Assembly (NCBI GenBank): GCA_001871925.1
Contig: MNWZ01000154.1
Span: 1 to 35,251 of the forward strand
DNA: 35,251 bases
Reading direction: 5' to 3'
DNA from: Zetaproteobacteria bacterium CG1_02_53_45
GTDB lineage: Bacteria > Pseudomonadota > Zetaproteobacteria > Mariprofundales > Mariprofundaceae
The position numbers were made by a program, and so were the translations under genes. The notes below the pieces were generated by a model that worked only from the letters and a program-made list of their open reading frames with translations, searched no databases and was not told the DNA's origin. Below are positions 1 through 8,103 of the stretch, in pieces. Position 1 is the first letter of the stretch. Each line of letters opens with the position of its first letter.

Positions 1-102
1 CATGTCGGGATTCGGAGGGGCTCATAGTACTGTTTGAGGCATCGGGACAACATAACCCGCAGCTGAGGGAAGGAGCCCTACTTTGTTACACACTTTTGAA
101 GG

Positions 103-1461
103 ATGGAGGATCAGGGGATTGCAGATATGCTAGTAACTCCGCTGAAGATCAGGACATTACAGAGAAAGCTATATGCCAAGGCCAAGCAGGAACCAGGCTA
201 TCGTTTTTATGCTTTGTACGACAAGGTTTATAGGGCTGATATATTGCATCATGCCTATCGCCTTGTTCGGTCGAACAAGGGTGCGCCGGGAATAGACGGT
301 GTGAGCTTTGCAGCCATCGAGGCAGAAGAAGGGGTGGAGACGTTTCTTGAAGGGCTGGCAGAGGAAGTGAAGAGCAGGACGTATCGGCCTATGCCAGTAC
401 GCCGTGTGATGATCCCGAAAGCAGACGGGAGCCAGAGGTCACTGGGCATTCCCACGATTCGTGATCGTGTGGTGCAGATGGCTGTGAAGCTCATGATAGA
501 ACCGATCTTTGAAGCGGACTTTTGTGATTCTTCGTATGGTTTTCGTCCAAAGCGCTCAGCTCATGACGCCATGGGTGATATTTCCAGTGCGCTACGAAAA
601 GGGCATTGTGAAGTGATTGATGCCGACCTTTCCAAATACTTTGACACCATACCACATGCCAAATTGATGGCTGTGGTTGCAGAACGCATAGCTGATAGTG
701 GGATATTGCATCTCATCAAGCAATGGCTGAAAGCACCTGTGGTAGAAAAAGGGAAAGATGGCAAAGATTCAACCAGTGGCGGCAAGGGTAATCGACGCGG
801 GACACCGCAGGGTGGTGTGATCTCTCCATTATTGGCAAACCTTTACCTGCATCTTTTGGACAGGATATGGGAACGCCATGGTCTGGAGAGGAAATATTCT
901 GCCCGTTTGGTACGCTACGCTGACGATATGGTGTTGCTATGTGCCAAGGGAACAGCCAAACCGCTGGGCATGCTTATGCTTAGATACATTCTTGATCGTC
1001 TTGAACTCACATTGAACGAGACGAAAACGAAGGTGGTCAACGCATGGGATGAGAGCTTCGGCTTTCTTGGCTTTGAGGTTCGTATGAACCTAGGCCGCAG
1101 TGGTAAAGCTTATCCGCACATACAACCCAGTAAATCGGCAGTAAAACGTATCAATGCGAAAGTAACCGCATTGACGCAAAGAAACCTGACACCAATTCCA
1201 CTCCCAATCATAGTTCAGCGACTGAATCAGTCTCTACGTGGCTGGGCATGTTATTTTGATTACGCTAACAGCACGCAAATATTTGGTGATGTTAAACGAC
1301 ATGCAGAAGAGCGGATGCGGACACACTTACGCAGACGGCATAAAGTGAAAGCCCGAAGGGTTGGTCAGGGCAGGTTTCCAAATCGAGTGCTGTATGATCA
1401 TCATGGACTGTTTAAACTTCCAACAACAGCTCCTTGGAAGAGGGCGCATGCGTTGGCATGA
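103..1461 (+). CDS. ltrA: Group II intron reverse transcriptase/maturase (LtrA-like, no HNH endonuclease domain evident)
   Basis: Motifs NKGAPGIDGVSF, SLGIPTIRDRVVQMAVKLMIEPIFEADFCDSSYGFRPKRSAHDA, GTPQGGVISPLLANLYLHLLD, RYADDMVLL; C-terminal GLFKLPTTAPWKRAHAL. Confidence 0.95.
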   Translation: MEDQGIADMLVTPLKIRTLQRKLYAKAKQEPGYRFYALYDKVYRADILHHAYRLVRSNKGAPGIDGVSFAAIEAEEGVETFLEGLAEEVKSRTYRPMPVRRVMIPKADGSQRSLGIPTIRDRVVQMAVKLMIEPIFEADFCDSSYGFRPKRSAHDAMGDISSALRKGHCEVIDADLSKYFDTIPHAKLMAVVAERIADSGILHLIKQWLKAPVVEKGKDGKDSTSGGKGNRRGTPQGGVISPLLANLYLHLLDRIWERHGLERKYSARLVRYADDMVLLCAKGTAKPLGMLMLRYILDRLELTLNETKTKVVNAWDESFGFLGFEVRMNLGRSGKAYPHIQPSKSAVKRINAKVTALTQRNLTPIPLPIIVQRLNQSLRGWACYFDYANSTQIFGDVKRHAEERMRTHLRRRHKVKARRVGQGRFPNRVLYDHHGLFKLPTTAPWKRAHALA

Positions 1462-1471
1462 AAAACATCGG

Positions 1472-1505
1472 AAAGCCGTGTACGGGAAAACCGTATGCAC
1501 GGTTT
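1472..1505 (+). ncRNA. Group II intron domain V hairpin
   Basis: 34-nt hairpin with AGC triad at 1474-1476, GAAA-type loop and a 2-nt bulge, just after the maturase stop. Confidence 0.8.
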
Positions 1506-1569
1506 GATGAGGGAGGGCAGGGAGATCTGCTCTCTACTCTACCATTTGCTCTCCAGGAGGAATCCCGCT

Positions 1570-1809
1570 ATGCCAAACAAGTTGAATACGGTACATCACC
1601 AAGAAATTGGTAACCAAAAACGAAGTATGGAAATGCAAAACAAAACTGCGTGGGCAACCCCCACCATAATTTGCGTAGCCTCGGAGAGACCGGAGGGTAC
1701 CGCTAGAGCGGCCTCCCGCGGATGGCTGAACCCAACTATGACATGGACCGTCCTAACGGCGCGCAGCGTCGCAGCGCCCGCAATTCCGCGTCGTTTTTGC
1801 ACCGGGTAG
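1570..1809 (+). CDS. Short ORF (79 aa), possible peptide precursor; function unknown
   Basis: ATG preceded by AGGAGG (1555-1560); MPNKLNTVHHQEIGNQKRSMEMQNKTAWATPTIICVASERPEGTARAASRGWLNPTMTW...; no overlapping known gene; leader-like W-x-x-P-x-I segment. Confidence 0.4.
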   Translation: MPNKLNTVHHQEIGNQKRSMEMQNKTAWATPTIICVASERPEGTARAASRGWLNPTMTWTVLTARSVAAPAIPRRFCTG

Positions 1810-1843
1810 TAGTCTCCACCTCGACGGCCTGCGGCCGTCAGGT
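1650..1843. other. Cluster of stem-loops, candidate structured RNA/terminator region
   Basis: GTGGG/CCCAC (1650-1664); GGAGG(GTA)CCGC-TAGA-GCGGCCTCC (1692-1716); GGCGC/GCGCC (1758-1778); ACCT(C)GACGGCC-TGC-GGCCGTCAGGT (1818-1843). Confidence 0.5.
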
Positions 1844-2716
1844 AGGGGCGATCCATCCACCAGTGTGTTTGATATGCGTTAAGACAGCTATCCATATTCG
1901 GGTGAATCGCCCGTAGGTGCTAACCCGGCCGCGCAAGCCCCCGTGCAGCCAGGCGTACCAACGCTGAACGTACTGCCGGAGCCGATCACGGTCGGCTCCT
2001 TGCTCATAAAGCCGGCGAGCACGTTGCAACAGTCGGTCCAGGCAAAGCTTGGAAGGTCGCAGTTTACGGCCGGGGTGCAGGCGATACCCCAAAAAATCAA
2101 ACCCTCCGCTGGTTCTTCCAATATAGCGTTTGTCCGGGTGGAGGGTGAGTTTCAGCGCATCGAGAACCCTGTACATGCCGCGCAGGACCGCCCGTAGCTT
2201 GTGGCGGATCGGTGCGAAGATCACGAAGTCATCTATGAAACGCTCATAGTATATACCGTATCGCTCCCGATAGTGCCCCATCAGCCGATCCAGTGGTGTC
2301 AGATAGAGCGCAGCCAGCAGTGGAGAGATGGCGCCACCTGCTACCATGCCTCGGCCGCTTCGATGCGTATCGGGAAGGCTCAGATAGTCCCGGACTATCG
2401 CCTGAAGCGACGGGCCCACTTTGGCTGTTTGTAACTGATCCAGCAGGATGGTGTGATCGATGCTCTCGTAGTAGCTCCGGATATCAAAGCGGGCCACAAA
2501 CGGGAATTGCCCGTTTGCCCTGTTTGCCCGGCGGATGGCCCCCTTGGCACCGCCTCGCCCCTTCAGGTGGGCACAGCTGCTACTGAGATGTGGTCTGAGT
2601 TCCACGCCCAGTCGATCTTTTACCCTGTGCAACAGCGCCTGAGTTTGGGGAGCCCAGCGAACGAAACACCGCCCTTCGGCAAGCCAGCTATTAGCCAGCG
2701 TCAGTAATGACGGCAT
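1838..2716 (-). CDS. Reverse transcriptase (RNA-directed DNA polymerase), short, group II-like, FIDD active site
   Basis: ORF 1838..2740; FVARFDIRSYYESIDH, MVAGGAISPLLAALYLTPLD, YYERFIDDFVIFAP, TLHPDKRYIGRTSGGFDFLGYRLHPG; likely start at the internal ATG near 2716 (ORF opens at 2740). Confidence 0.85.
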   Translation of the reverse strand: MPSLLTLANSWLAEGRCFVRWAPQTQALLHRVKDRLGVELRPHLSSSCAHLKGRGGAKGAIRRANRANGQFPFVARFDIRSYYESIDHTILLDQLQTAKVGPSLQAIVRDYLSLPDTHRSGRGMVAGGAISPLLAALYLTPLDRLMGHYRERYGIYYERFIDDFVIFAPIRHKLRAVLRGMYRVLDALKLTLHPDKRYIGRTSGGFDFLGYRLHPGRKLRPSKLCLDRLLQRARRLYEQGADRDRLRQYVQRWYAWLHGGLRGRVSTYGRFTRIWIAVLTHIKHTGGWIAPT

Positions 2717-4604
2717 CACCGCTGCCGAATTGTTGCTCAATATCGAGCAATAACTGGTAACTACTCAGTAAAAAGAGGGCCGATTCGTGGCTGGCCAACT
2801 GTTGCAGGCGGTCAGGGTCACAGTAGGTTTGCGCAAGCCTGCTGTCGCGAAGCTGTTGAACCAGATTGTCTGACAGATCCTTTTTATTGTGATCGATTTG
2901 AGGATGAGATACATCCGCTTTCACACGCCATTGAATGCGCTCGGTGGTTACGCCCTCAAGTATACGGCGGAACATATAGCGTTCGATACCGTTGTAGACC
3001 TTCAGATGCGAAGGCATGTTGTAGGCCAGCTCCACCAGCGGTACATCGAGCATCGGGTAGCGGTATTCGATGCGGAACATGCGTGCAGCCAGCTCCGAGC
3101 CGACCAGCCGATTTTCCACGCCGACATCGAAGAGCTCGCGGCGATGGTGCGCCTTGACCGAGTAGCGCTGGTAGTTGTCGGTGAACTGCCGGAGTTTATG
3201 GCGCAGCCGGTAGCGCGCGATGAACGCCTCTTTCAGCGGATGCATGGCGGCGCGCTCATGCTGCGCCCGCTCCAGCCCGCCGCGCCTGCGCAGCCGGCGA
3301 CGATAGAGCGGCGGAGCCGCATGCTTGAGCAGCAGGTGAGCCCACGCTTTGGCCGGCCTGCCGCAGCGCTCGCGTGCGTACTTCTGCTTAAGTAATCGGT
3401 GCAGGGTAACGAGCCGGCCGGCTTTCAGCAGTTCGCTTTCGTAGAAGTCACCGTAGGTGGAGACGCAGTGGTCGCCACCCCAGCCGGAGAGCAGCACGCG
3501 GGCACCGGTTGCCGAGGCCAGGCGGCAGTGGTGGGTATTGCCGCCGATTCCCACCGGCAGGCCACCCATGGCGTGGCGCTGGAGATTCTCCTGATCCTGC
3601 TGCTGTTGTCGACACTCCTCCTCGGTGGCGGTTCGCCATACCGGACGGATATTGTCGTGCATCGCATGCATCCCGAAGATGTCCTCGTAGGTCTTCTCCC
3701 AGATGTGGCGATTGTCGTCGGTGAGTTTATCGCAGCCGTAAGAGAGGGTGTGGAGCGGCTGCTCGCCCAGCATGCGGGCGGCGAAACCGGCGATACCGTT
3801 GGAGTCGAGCCCCTCGCTGAGTTCAGCGGCCAGCGGATATTCGCTCTCCAGCCGTACCCGAACCGCCTGTTCGAAGCGCAATTTCAACGCCTCGATCAGC
3901 GCCTCGTCATCCACGCCATCCCAGTCTGATTTATCTTCCAGCGACCAGTAGCGGGATGGATTCGAGCCGCTTGCATCGATGATCATGCTATGGGCCGGCG
4001 CCAGCACCTCGATACCGACAAAGGGCGAGGTGAAGGCGGATGGTCCCACGCCCCACAGCTCTTCGGCCAGCCACGCCTCGTCAACCCGCTTCTCCATGGC
4101 CTGTTCGGCAAACAGGGCATTGTGCTCGTTGGTGACCATCCAGCCGAAACGGGTGCGGGCATAAAAGAGCACCTTCACACCGAAGTGGTCGCGGGCGCAG
4201 AAGAGGCGGCGCTTCGCCGCATCCCAAATGATAAAGGCGAAATCGCCGAGCAGGTGCGCCGGGCACGCTTCTCCCCACTGCCGGTAGGCGGCTAGGATCA
4301 ATGCTCCATCCGACATTGCAGCAAGCGTGTCCACGTCAATACCGAGTGCCTCGGCCAGTTCGGCTCGATTATCCAGCCGCGCGTTGGCGCTGATCATGTT
4401 GCTCGCATCGTCGCTATGCACCGCCTCCAGTTTCGATTGGGCGGTGTTGAACAGGGCGGCGCGGGCCATGCGGCAGTGGCCGTCGGGGCTGGCGGCAAAG
4501 CTCCCGGCATCGGGTCGCCAGTAGTCGGAGGCGGTCAGCATGGCGGCAATCGTCGATTCGGCGACCGGCGTATCGGGATCGAAGCAGGCGAATATCGTGC
4601 TCAT
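2691..4604 (-). CDS. Asparagine synthase-related protein (AsnB-like; possible lasso-type macrolactam synthetase)
   Basis: N-terminal glutaminase-like fold without Cys2 (MSTIFACFD), RDHFGVKVLFY, LAAELSEGLDSNGIAGFA (PPi-loop variant), VLLSGWGGDHCVSTYG, YRYPMLDVPLVELAYNMP. Confidence 0.85.
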   Translation of the reverse strand: MSTIFACFDPDTPVAESTIAAMLTASDYWRPDAGSFAASPDGHCRMARAALFNTAQSKLEAVHSDDASNMISANARLDNRAELAEALGIDVDTLAAMSDGALILAAYRQWGEACPAHLLGDFAFIIWDAAKRRLFCARDHFGVKVLFYARTRFGWMVTNEHNALFAEQAMEKRVDEAWLAEELWGVGPSAFTSPFVGIEVLAPAHSMIIDASGSNPSRYWSLEDKSDWDGVDDEALIEALKLRFEQAVRVRLESEYPLAAELSEGLDSNGIAGFAARMLGEQPLHTLSYGCDKLTDDNRHIWEKTYEDIFGMHAMHDNIRPVWRTATEEECRQQQQDQENLQRHAMGGLPVGIGGNTHHCRLASATGARVLLSGWGGDHCVSTYGDFYESELLKAGRLVTLHRLLKQKYARERCGRPAKAWAHLLLKHAAPPLYRRRLRRRGGLERAQHERAAMHPLKEAFIARYRLRHKLRQFTDNYQRYSVKAHHRRELFDVGVENRLVGSELAARMFRIEYRYPMLDVPLVELAYNMPSHLKVYNGIERYMFRRILEGVTTERIQWRVKADVSHPQIDHNKKDLSDNLVQQLRDSRLAQTYCDPDRLQQLASHESALFLLSSYQLLLDIEQQFGSGDAVITDAG

Positions 4605-5116
4605 GGGCGATCCTTTTTCCTGTTTCGAGGGCCGATGATTTCGAGGATCAGCGGAAACAGCCTGATCCCGGTCAGCAGCAGCGGGGCATGCTTCTTGCGC
4701 ATCTCAATCTGCTGCTCCTGTGGCATTTCATTGAAGTTCAGTGCATTGCGGATTTGAAGGATGCTCATATCGGCAAATTCCGGAAAGTTCGCGCGGGCAC
4801 GATTGAACTGCCGATTGAGTTTAACGGCTCTGACGATCATCTCGCTCGCTTGCTGTAGTGAAATCCGTTGCTGTTTCACTTCACGAACAGGGTTGCAGAA
4901 GTATGCGCCGCAGACGTGCGGCCGCTCGCTGTCATAGATCGTGCATTGTTGATGGAAATGCTGCTGCTCTTTCTTCATCCCGGTTGTCAGTCCCAGCGTT
5001 TCGGCCAGAGCCTTGTCATCGTCATGCTTGATGTTGGCATGGCGAAACAGCGTGCCGTCGCAACACATGCCGCAACTGGTGCATATCCCGGAGATCTGTT
5101 CGATTGAGGCGCTCAT
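4601..5116 (-). CDS. YkgJ-family cysteine cluster protein
   Basis: ICTSCGMCCDGTLF, HFHQQCTIYDSERPHVCGAYFCNPVRE. Confidence 0.75.
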   Translation of the reverse strand: MSASIEQISGICTSCGMCCDGTLFRHANIKHDDDKALAETLGLTTGMKKEQQHFHQQCTIYDSERPHVCGAYFCNPVREVKQQRISLQQASEMIVRAVKLNRQFNRARANFPEFADMSILQIRNALNFNEMPQEQQIEMRKKHAPLLLTGIRLFPLILEIIGPRNRKKDRP

Positions 5117-6003
5117 GCGGCGATCTGCTCCAGCGGCAGCGCGGGAACCGGATTGCCATCTGCATCGAGATAACCGAATCGCTGCATCACCGCATGGTGA
5201 TCATTGATAATGCGATCAATCTGTTCGGGCGAGAGCGTTTCCTGCCAGTCGCCGACTTTACCCTTGCGAAAGAATGCCTCGTGCTTCGGCGACTTTTCGC
5301 AGAAGCCCTTCTCCTGTTCCTGAGCCTGCAACTTCTCGAAGGCGCATTTGTCCAGTGCCGCCTGCACCGAAGCAGCATCATCGGGCAGTTGCAGAAAACT
5401 GCAGATGCGGGTGAAGGTGGCAAGCGAATCGTGGCGCATATCCTCGTAGCGTACGACGAGTCGGTCGATCTCATCGGCATCGGCCCAGCTCTCCACGTGA
5501 GCGGACCAGGAGAGCAGCTTCTGGCGCAGCTGGTTGTCCATTCGTTTGGTGGCTCGAGAGAAGGCGAAGTCGGGATTGCCCATGTTCGCGATCGACTGAT
5601 CGATTGTGCAGTGGTTGTGGTGAGCGAAGGAGATCGCCACGTCGAGCGGATTGCGGATGATACAGAGGGCACCGGCGGTGCACGCAGCCGGGAATAGCGG
5701 TTCGCCGTTGGCGAGATATGTGTAGGCGTCGTGCACCTTGTGATAGCCGTGCTCCTCTGCCTCATCGGCATGCCAGCGATAGACGGCCGGGCGCAGCAGG
5801 TCGATCTCGTCGTGATCGAGATCGGCGGAGTCGAAGCCGAGAACCTCATCGATCCAGCCACGGTCGCTGGCGATGGCGCCGGTGTGCAGGGCGTTGATAT
5901 CGACCTCCTCCGGCTCCTCGTGACGCAGACTGGCAATAAAGGCGCGTGTCCAGGTGTTGCCCGATTTCGGATAGGAGGCGAGCCAGAAGATGCCGGCGCT
6001 CAT
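5113..6003 (-). CDS. Sulfotransferase domain protein
   Basis: N-terminal PAPS-binding-like FWLASYPKSGNTWTRAFI; CIIRNPLDVAISFAHH; VVRYEDM. Confidence 0.9.
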   Translation of the reverse strand: MSAGIFWLASYPKSGNTWTRAFIASLRHEEPEEVDINALHTGAIASDRGWIDEVLGFDSADLDHDEIDLLRPAVYRWHADEAEEHGYHKVHDAYTYLANGEPLFPAACTAGALCIIRNPLDVAISFAHHNHCTIDQSIANMGNPDFAFSRATKRMDNQLRQKLLSWSAHVESWADADEIDRLVVRYEDMRHDSLATFTRICSFLQLPDDAASVQAALDKCAFEKLQAQEQEKGFCEKSPKHEAFFRKGKVGDWQETLSPEQIDRIINDHHAVMQRFGYLDADGNPVPALPLEQIAA

Positions 6004-6917
6004 GCCGCCACGATCCCCTTGTTGCGCAGGTCGCCCATGATCATCTCCACCAGCTCGTCCAGCTTGAAGCCGTGGTTGGGGCGGGTGATGCGCGAGAGGT
6101 GGATACGGCCGGCGAGTTTACTGCATAGCCCCAGATGCTCCGCCTTCAGCCCCAGACCGTCGAGGTAGCCGACGCGGTAGGTGTTGTTCTTCAGCGGATT
6201 GAACTTCTGCATGCCTCTGATCGATTCGATCTCGAACTCATCGCGATTGTGGCTGTTGAGAATATAGATCGCAGCGACGGGCAGATGCTCCATGGCCGGA
6301 TTATCGAGCGGATAGGCGTACTTCTCCACCTGCAGCCGGATGCGGTTGAGCTCGTCGGTATCGATCGAAAGCCGTTTTGCGGCATCCTGCCAGAGCTTGA
6401 GCTGTGGAAAGCTCGGTGCCACATGCCCCTCGGCATCAATGGCGCAGACATCATCGGCCAGAATCTCGTGGCCGCGTTTATGAAAGGCGGCGGCGAGTGT
6501 CGATTTGCCCGCCCCCGAGTGGCCGGCGAACACCACGCAGCGATCGCCGAAGCGCACGGCATTGCCGTGCATCACCAGCACGCCGCGCTGATGCAGGATC
6601 GCCCCCATGCAGGAGCCGAGCAGATAGAGCCGGATGCTCTGCTCATCGCTGCCGGAGTATGGATCGACAACAATGCTGTTGCCGTCCCGGACCAGAAAGC
6701 GGGCAATATCGGGCACATTCAGCCACAGGATGTTTTCAGCGCTCTGGTAGAACGGGGTTGCCTTGTTTGGTTTTTCCAGGCCGCTGGCCGATACCGGGCC
6801 GATGCTGATAAAGACATCTGCAGTGACTTCGCCGATTGCCGGAGGTAGTGCAGGCAACTCGATATGACTGTGAATATTCAGGCCGAAGGCGTTATATCGA
6901 TAGGCGGGGCTATTCAT
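6000..6917 (-). CDS. HPr kinase/phosphorylase-like kinase (HprK-related)
   Basis: VFAGHSGAGKSTLAAAFHKRGHEILADDVCAI Walker A and following aspartates. Confidence 0.8.
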   Translation of the reverse strand: MNSPAYRYNAFGLNIHSHIELPALPPAIGEVTADVFISIGPVSASGLEKPNKATPFYQSAENILWLNVPDIARFLVRDGNSIVVDPYSGSDEQSIRLYLLGSCMGAILHQRGVLVMHGNAVRFGDRCVVFAGHSGAGKSTLAAAFHKRGHEILADDVCAIDAEGHVAPSFPQLKLWQDAAKRLSIDTDELNRIRLQVEKYAYPLDNPAMEHLPVAAIYILNSHNRDEFEIESIRGMQKFNPLKNNTYRVGYLDGLGLKAEHLGLCSKLAGRIHLSRITRPNHGFKLDELVEMIMGDLRNKGIVAA

Positions 6918-8103
6918 GACGATGCTTTCCTTTGTGTCGGAGTCAGGCGCCGGAGCAGGAACGAGAAGGGGCGCATCAGGTAATATGCAAAAAAGAGCGA
7001 GTCGGGCAATGGGAATCGCTTGAAATCGTTGATGGCAATCGGCGCATGGACAAGAAAATATTTGATCAGGCTGGTCCGTGGCGCCCAGAAGCCTATACGG
7101 CGGATATAGGCCATGCCGCTCACCGATTGCATATTGAGCAAGCGGGCAGCTGACCAGTTTATCTGGCGCTGAATGGTGAAATGATTGTCGATATGAGGCT
7201 GAACGGCTCTACCGGCACGGGCATACGATAAAACGCGCATGCCAGACCGACCGCTTCCAGCAGGCTGTTGCGGCAGTGGTATTTTTTCGCCTGTTGCAGC
7301 AGCGCATGCCACGCGGGCGGGTGGTCGTGCATCAGCAGCGCGATATCGCAGAGCCAGCGCAGGCGATACCAGCCGGAGACCGAACCGTGCAGACACTGGT
7401 AGAGCCAGAGCAGCGGGCCAGAGAGTGTCGGGATCGATTCGCCGTGGATGCTTACCCACTCGGCATCAGCCAGCAGCTCTTTCAGCGACGGGTTGAACGG
7501 GTGGGCCACATCGATCAGGCGCCAGTGCAACTCCACCCGCGTTCGATCCCGGCCATGAATATATTCGCGATCCTTCTTGTGGCGATCGAGAAAACGCAAC
7601 TGTTTCGGCGTCGCCTCCGCATGCGGCATGGTGCGCATGAATCCGGCCGCGAACAGGATGGCCTCGACCCGGTCGACGTTTTCGGCATCCACCATGATAT
7701 CGATATCCCGGCACTGCCTGTAGCCCTGGTTGCCATAGAGCCGCTGCGATAGTGCCGCTCCCTTGGGAACAATGAATGCGACCCTGTCGGTGCGCAGGGC
7801 TCGCGCAATACCAGCCAGCCATGTCGCCTGCCGCAGGTGCTGCTGACGGCAGTGCATGTTTTCCGCTTGCAGGCGTTGAAAAAAATCGGCGGGCAGATCG
7901 CTTCCGGCAGCGGCAAGCCGCTGATAGACCTGCGGCGTGACCCGGTGCCACCGCACCATCTGCAGGAATGTATGCTGATTAAAATGCGGATCATTCACTG
8001 CCGCTACCATCTCCGGAGCCTGCATGGCGCCATTCGGATGGGTCAGTTCAAGCAGCAGGTTGAAGGCGGCGGCATCAGGAGCCGCAGGCAGTGTCGTTTG
8101 CAA
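6914..8103 (-). pseudogene. Nucleotidyltransferase family protein (NTP_transf_5-like), apparently frameshifted
   Basis: ORF 7159..8103 has GAALSQRLYGNQGYRQCRDIDIMVD and VELHWRLID; the continuing C-terminal part (INWSAARLLNM...FKRFPLPDSLFFAYYLMRPFSFLLRRL) is in the other frame (ORF 6914..7459). Confidence 0.7.

Follow-up and report, generated by a model that had tools for sequence, protein, structure and literature searches.

A UG4-like reverse transcriptase recurs with convergent lasso-peptide precursor genes in Zetaproteobacteria

Introduction

What is a reverse transcriptase (RT) doing at the end of a peptide-tailoring operon? In a 35,251-nt contig binned with Zetaproteobacteria bacterium CG1_02_53_45 (the window, meaning the whole stretch analysed here), a run of minus-strand genes for a nucleotidyltransferase (NTase), an HprK-like kinase, a sulfotransferase, a YkgJ-like protein and an AsnB-like protein leads directly into an RT gene whose reading frame begins inside the AsnB gene. 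An original prediction, made from this DNA alone, likened the operon to lasso-peptide pathways with kinase tailoring, named a polysaccharide pathway as the alternative, and proposed that the RT might have a function in the pathway, for instance by copying or diversifying an RNA linked to the peptide substrate. Among open-licence publications, we found no paper on RTs associated with lasso peptides.

The window is contig C138 of the metagenome-assembled genome (MAG) G000 and matches G051 contig C58 (Zetaproteobacteria bacterium CG_4_9_14_3_um_filter_54_145) at 99.98% identity. This match, together with a second gpmI (75% identical) on contig C88 of G000, makes it probable that the window is mis-binned in G000 and belongs to a G051-type organism, an iron-oxidising bacterium. 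The two MAGs were apparently sampled at one site or at linked sites.

Results

The operon belongs to a lasso-peptide pathway

The predicted minus-strand gene order and tight packing hold, with 4-nt overlaps at each of the four junctions from AsnB through the YkgJ-like protein, sulfotransferase and HprK-like kinase to the NTase (the last once a frameshift is recognised):

2691..4604, minus strand: AsnB-like lasso macrolactam synthetase (C protein), full length (Asn_synthase and GATase)
4601..5116, minus strand: YkgJ-like Cys-cluster protein; orthologues 53% (G054) and 49% (G008) identical, beside the same genes
5113..6003, minus strand: sulfotransferase (Sulfotransfer_1, PF00685, 3.6e-27); orthologue in G054 78% identical
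6000..6917, minus strand: HprK-like kinase (Hpr_kinase_C, PF07475, and HprK_rel_A, both weak)
6914..8103, minus strand: NTP_transf_5 nucleotidyltransferase (PF14907, 1.4e-53), frameshifted; N-terminal frame 7159-8103, C-terminal frame 6914-7459

A single 390-aa NTase in G054 covers both window frames, and the true gene therefore spans 6914-8103, overlapping HprK by 4 nt. The frameshift is also present in the near-identical G051 contig and may be a sequencing or assembly error rather than true decay even so, given the seemingly shared or linked origin of the two MAGs. Among NCBIfam models, AsnB matches that of the lasso isopeptide cyclase best (E 8e-90, below the model's cut-off), and its C-terminus is untruncated, with ..DAVITDAG* reaching the stop of the G054 orthologue in the alignment (..EMEITKAS*). 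The YkgJ-like protein has no Pfam match, and its label rests on the Cys cluster and on the orthologues beside the same genes.

Relatives supply the remainder of the pathway. The operon NTase-HprK-sulfotransferase-YkgJ-AsnB is intact in G054, at 37-78% identity per gene; in G008, HprK, AsnB, NTase and YkgJ genes occur together with PqqD, B2, ABC exporter and ATP-grasp genes; and the same four accessory genes lie on contig C2 of G000 (G000:C2), where the lasso PqqD (NF033536) and lasso B2 (NF033537) both score above curated cut-offs. PqqD, B2 and exporter had been noted as missing, which is correct for the window, and neither B1 (PqqD) nor B2 protease was found there or in 40 kb of the corresponding G051 contig; all three are found in G008 and G000:C2.

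Furthermore, two small genes that follow the AsnB operon of G054 on the opposite strand are lasso precursors, ..SWDTPVMIRLDGSETH/GKPYVDATESHRFLSTGGGASYGPS and ..QWEQPRLILLNSAGTE/GKTFVDPTESHSSFSGGGGKNYGPS (slash before residue 1), both carrying the lasso signature (Thr at -2, Gly1, Glu9) and a C-terminal GPS*. Thr at -2, a ring from G/A1 to D/E7-9 and a C-terminal Ser are present in the precursors at G054, G053:C1 and G051:C23, the window copy being broken, and the ...GPS end is invariant among the precursors of these relatives. The canonical precursor at G053:C1 (..NNTD/GGKGAFFTETAVGSSKSIGPS*, locus L105, 6681-6860) is an orphan, with no lasso genes on the 14 kb examined.

The operon is thus a lasso-peptide pathway of the paeninodin/pseudomycoidin type, as had been proposed, and the lasso genes and precursors rule out the polysaccharide operon. 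In paeninodin and pseudomycoidin, HprK-like lasso kinases phosphorylate the C-terminal Ser, and an NTase-family partner acts on that site (PMC9266682). As the invariant ..GPS end fits this known job, the C-terminal Ser of the precursor is the expected target of the HprK-like kinase here, and the NTase would also modify it. The window shares with those clusters the AsnB-like C protein, HprK-like kinase and NTase, and its relatives share PqqD, B2, the ABC exporter and precursors with T(-2) and a C-terminal Ser (PMC9266682); unlike them, it has a sulfotransferase and a YkgJ-like protein in addition (and, in relatives, an ATP-grasp), it lacks B1, B2 and exporter, and an RT module lies between AsnB and a broken precursor. 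With the NTase frameshifted and the precursor broken, we read the window as the tailoring half of a phospho-lasso-peptide cluster in decay.

The RT is related to the UG4 class

1838..2716, minus strand: UG4-like RT, 292 aa from ATG 2716 (TTG 2740 possible) to the stop at 1838 (RVT_1 4e-17; PADLOC RT_UG4)

As predicted, the RT frame starts in the 3' end of AsnB, with ATG 2716 lying 26 nt inside that gene. The best profile is PADLOC RT_UG4 (5e-61, 204 bits, profile positions 60-305 of 307), followed by a general RT profile (97 bits) and UG17 (86 bits). A full UG4 member scores 458 bits on the UG4 profile, and profile positions 1-59 are missing both here and in a second RT copy on contig C31 of G051 (G051:C31), hence "UG4-like" rather than a plain member. 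In a tree confined to 14 rows (the two RT copies, nine UG4 and three group II RTs, other UG classes left out), the two copies form a sister clade to the nine UG4 RTs, at 100/100 and apart from group II RTs. The catalytic Asp residues of the FDI and FIDD motifs (D78, D162 and D163) are invariant in the alignment. With group II introns, one of which (1-1542) lies directly beside the module, the RT shares domain ancestry; unlike them, it has no GIIM maturase match within 1838-2716 and no nearby domain V of its own, the sole Rfam domain V match, at 1471-1542, being on the opposite strand and part of that neighbouring intron. The RT is missing from most genomes of the class. A GTDB scan with narrow peptide patterns returned only the two G051 copies as closer relatives, and IMG/VR only RTs of 24-33% identity.

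The two copies are 74% identical, with Ka/Ks of 0.13 at Ks 1.29 over 200 codons, which indicates that the RT protein was long under strong purifying selection before its copies decayed. This argues for an RT that was active at least in the past; its activity is in doubt, as both copies lack the N-terminal fingers part found in UG4 and group II RTs.

At the 3' end of the gene lie a block of low divergence and a long predicted hairpin:

1869..2085, minus strand: RT 3' block, near-identical DNA in the two RT copies (Ks ~0.1 versus 1.29 upstream)
1795..1911, minus strand: conserved RT 3' end and long hairpin (model R1), between the RT and a convergent precursor; holds the 24-nt core 1870-1893

Over the last ~72 codons, Ks between the copies drops to ~0.1, and the G051:C31 copy differs in the block by a 50-bp insertion and a short divergent patch beside it. 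The insertion (locus L010, 411-461), which frameshifts this second copy, consists of two palindromes, CCTTCATGGACGAAGG and a CCTGTTTT...AAAACAGG stem. Among copies, the distances measured in the block and in the hairpin disagree: the window and G051:C31 differ at 0 of 42 block sites and at 27 of 72 hairpin sites, while G051:C31 and G053 differ at 3 of 42 and 6 of 72, respectively. On account of this conflict we read the near-identical block as gene conversion; nucleotide-level (RNA) constraint would explain it equally well. The hairpin model, built from 3 sequences only, has 32 predicted pairs, 4 of them with changes on both sides. It matches no known RNA family in Rfam and was found in neither plasmids nor IMG/VR, and its 24-mer core is confined to G000, G051 and G053 among 399 genomes. 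An integron attC site, suggested by eye from TTAAC...GTTAG-like ends, was rejected; the GTTAG-like end occurs in the window copy only.

A module of RT, hairpin and convergent precursor recurs

Two features absent from the original prediction converge on the RT 3' end, a decayed precursor frame and a group II intron:

about 1627..1756, plus strand: decayed lasso-precursor gene (three-frame reading), convergent with the RT
103..1461, plus strand: group II intron maturase (RVT_1 and GIIM; TIGR04416 above cut-off), the intron 5' end lying off the contig
1471..1542, plus strand: group II intron domains V and VI (Rfam RF00029, 55 bits)

The decayed gene has the leader-like MEMQNKTAWATPTII (WATPTII) in one frame and ...HGPS* in another; intact precursors read WRTPTITKL...GPS* and WQKPQI...GPS*. 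The module or decayed pieces of it are found at six places in four MAGs, all of one genus-level group:

(a) window: AsnB, RT, hairpin, decayed precursor, group II intron
(b) G051:C31: EF-hand gene with the start and most of the signal peptide missing, RT carrying the frameshifting 50-bp palindromic insertion, hairpin, precursor 3' half
(c) G053:C10: dnaB, RT tail, hairpin, intact precursor
(d) G051:C23: transposase, hairpin, intact precursor, group II intron
(e) G000:C2: precursor core ..TQGKRVWPSEGTPYYTEGQS*, 24-nt RT core, near lasso genes
(f) G054: degenerate RT tail (71% over 78 nt; WFA*LHDSLPG*VTI*GRFT), about 1 kb past AsnB

At (b), the precursor 3' half reads ..TFGAKTPLKSEYNSISAGPS*, and the matching 5' half lies at the end of G051 contig C94, with TTTGGTGC repeated at both IS junctions. 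Two different group II introns sit just upstream of two precursor modules (window 1-1542; G051:C23, locus L093, from about 5960). At G000:C2, two Phd/YefM antitoxin frames, one of them shortened, flank the precursor core (locus L082, 1949-2227 and 2421-2771), as if the module had split or duplicated a toxin-antitoxin locus.

At the other edge of the module, the window and G051:C31 share the RT 5' edge AATAGYTGG, beyond which the DNA is AsnB in one and antisense EF-hand gene in the other. The same edge in two unrelated contexts marks the edge of the module; the start codon is therefore borrowed from the host DNA, and the AsnB/RT overlap is no evidence for an old operon partnership. What recurs is an RT-precursor module, not an RT-AsnB operon: the precursor leader is conserved and its core is variable, with the RT 3' end and hairpin as conserved flanks. 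The proposed membership of the RT in the pathway therefore stands in part. The RT is linked to the gene for the peptide substrate, its 3' end facing a precursor, whole, decayed or partial, at the window, G051:C94/C31, G053:C10 and G000:C2; it does not belong permanently to the AsnB/HprK/NTase operon, since no intact RT accompanies these genes in G054 and G008 and the second copy lies by the EF-hand gene.

UG4 relatives lie beside surface-ligand genes

Fimbrial domains have been reported near 66% of UG4 RTs (PMC8934634). In all 13 of the UG4 loci inspected here, the RT lies beside a surface-ligand gene. The eight fimbrial loci (L016, L017, L018, L045, L108, L109, L110 and L111) have pilin genes on one side of it and another secreted, adhesin-like protein on the other; of two such proteins scanned for the C-terminal domain of the fimbrial adhesin MrpH (MrpH_C), one scores above and one just below the cut-off. 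Beyond the adhesin gene, partial second UG4 RT copies (90-95% identical) occur at L108 (3657-4051 and 7508-7902) and L111 (4276-4438 and 6347-6512).

In the five remaining loci, on Salmonella plasmids, RT and inverse-autotransporter adhesin genes converge, and wherever both have been annotated their 3' ends overlap. One plasmid, from S. Poona (L115, NZ_CP019190.1, 98000-122000), carries two adhesins that are identical for about 1350 aligned residues and then fall to 26-59% identity toward the RT-facing C-terminal end; one faces a full UG4 RT and the other a 96% identical 3' half of that RT. We found no paper on this pattern of end divergence among open-licence publications.

The window RT resembles these RTs in best profile, in sister-clade position, in the motifs ISPLLA, xIDD/xMDD, HPDK and GFDFLG, and in lying beside a gene for a variable secreted ligand. 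Unlike them, it is only about 30-34% identical and lacks about 60 N-terminal residues; it comes from Zetaproteobacteria MAGs, UG4 being found on Enterobacterales plasmids; and its partner is a lasso-peptide precursor rather than a fimbrial or inverse-autotransporter adhesin, with AsnB and precursor in place of fimbrial neighbours.

Discussion

We propose, giving it an even chance, that the RT is part of a small dispersible UG4-like retroelement module tied to genes with exchangeable ends, acting on its own module by copying the precursor end and hairpin, and is not a tailoring enzyme. As a retroelement enzyme, it would copy the transcript across the precursor end and hairpin, and new precursor ends might thereby be duplicated or recombined into other sites; the kinase and NTase would modify the invariant Ser of ...GPS*, as in paeninodin and pseudomycoidin. 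Several observations weigh against this retroelement reading. Copies are few, all fall within one genus-level group, and only two of them have an RT gene, one with a frameshift; we identified no target-site duplications at the module copies; and lasso precursor cores vary without any RT. Among the module copies, none agree at both ends, and nothing points directly to reverse transcription or to recent movement. A LINE-like fixed 3' end with 5'-truncated copies was also considered and rejected, as homology between the G053 and G051:C23 copies continues past that end into the precursor.

Perhaps, and this is possible though clearly less probable to us, the RT is a hitch-hiker, a UG4-derived gene duplicated or moved beside precursors by IS elements, introns and homologous recombination with no benefit to them, in which case the conserved flanks would reflect shared ancestry of a few copies. 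The IS/transposase genes or group II introns at several module copies, the RT frameshifted by its palindromic insertion, the many genomes of the class without the RT, and the decay of the window cluster itself all agree with such a history, whereas purifying selection on the RT over Ks 1.29, the recurrence of the convergent RT-precursor order and the like placement of Enterobacterales UG4 relatives beside ligand genes speak against it. Lasso and adhesin loci alike are compatible with cassette exchange in which the RT is either active (as cDNA donor) or passive (as shared homology).

The other readings are improbable. There is only a slight chance that this is an RT of anti-phage defence (DRT/UG class) that happens to lie in a variable region: UG4 is filed among the DRT models in PADLOC, but no toxic partner or fused effector domain is seen, and the relatives lie in adhesin operons, not defence islands. 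Slighter still is the chance that the RT works in the lasso tailoring operon and is translationally coupled to AsnB, as its start within AsnB and the degenerate tail past AsnB in G054 might suggest; intact lasso clusters exist without an RT, the second copy adjoins an EF-hand gene, and the 5' edge of the RT is also that of the module, its start codon borrowed from AsnB. Least probable of all, and largely refuted, is mutagenesis of the kind carried out by diversity-generating retroelements (DGRs), in which the RT would introduce errors at adenines while copying a template RNA into the precursor core. A variable core between a conserved leader and a conserved 3' flank does recall a DGR, as do an RT adjoining a gene with a varying end and a hairpin directly downstream, as at DGR targets. 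However, no template/variable repeat was found within window positions 1543-2800 or in the 13 UG4 loci, no Avd gene was seen, the core differences and those of the S. Poona adhesins are block-wise rather than adenine-specific, and the best RT profile among the PADLOC models is UG4.

To return to the retroelement module, this poorly known class of RTs may be associated with genes that require variable ends. In a broader form that we consider doubtful, UG4 RTs would make up a retroelement system by which exported ligand genes have their variable ends exchanged or diversified; the RT gene would serve as the conserved 3' flank of the exchangeable segment (a fimbrial tip adhesin, the C-terminal end of an inverse autotransporter, a lasso precursor core), and its cDNA would seed recombination of new ends into paralogues.

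We know of no function for UG4 RTs. The one published lead that we found is the presence of fimbrial genes near them; new here are a UG4-like RT with an altered N-terminus and a new partner, the lasso precursor, which extends the ligand-gene pattern to a different exported ligand, again with the RT adjoining a gene with a varying end. With two adhesins on the single S. Poona plasmid differing only toward the end that abuts the RT, this orphan class is now directly testable. If it is true that the RT drives end exchange, it would represent a second bacterial route, besides DGRs, by which reverse transcription is used to vary displayed or released products.
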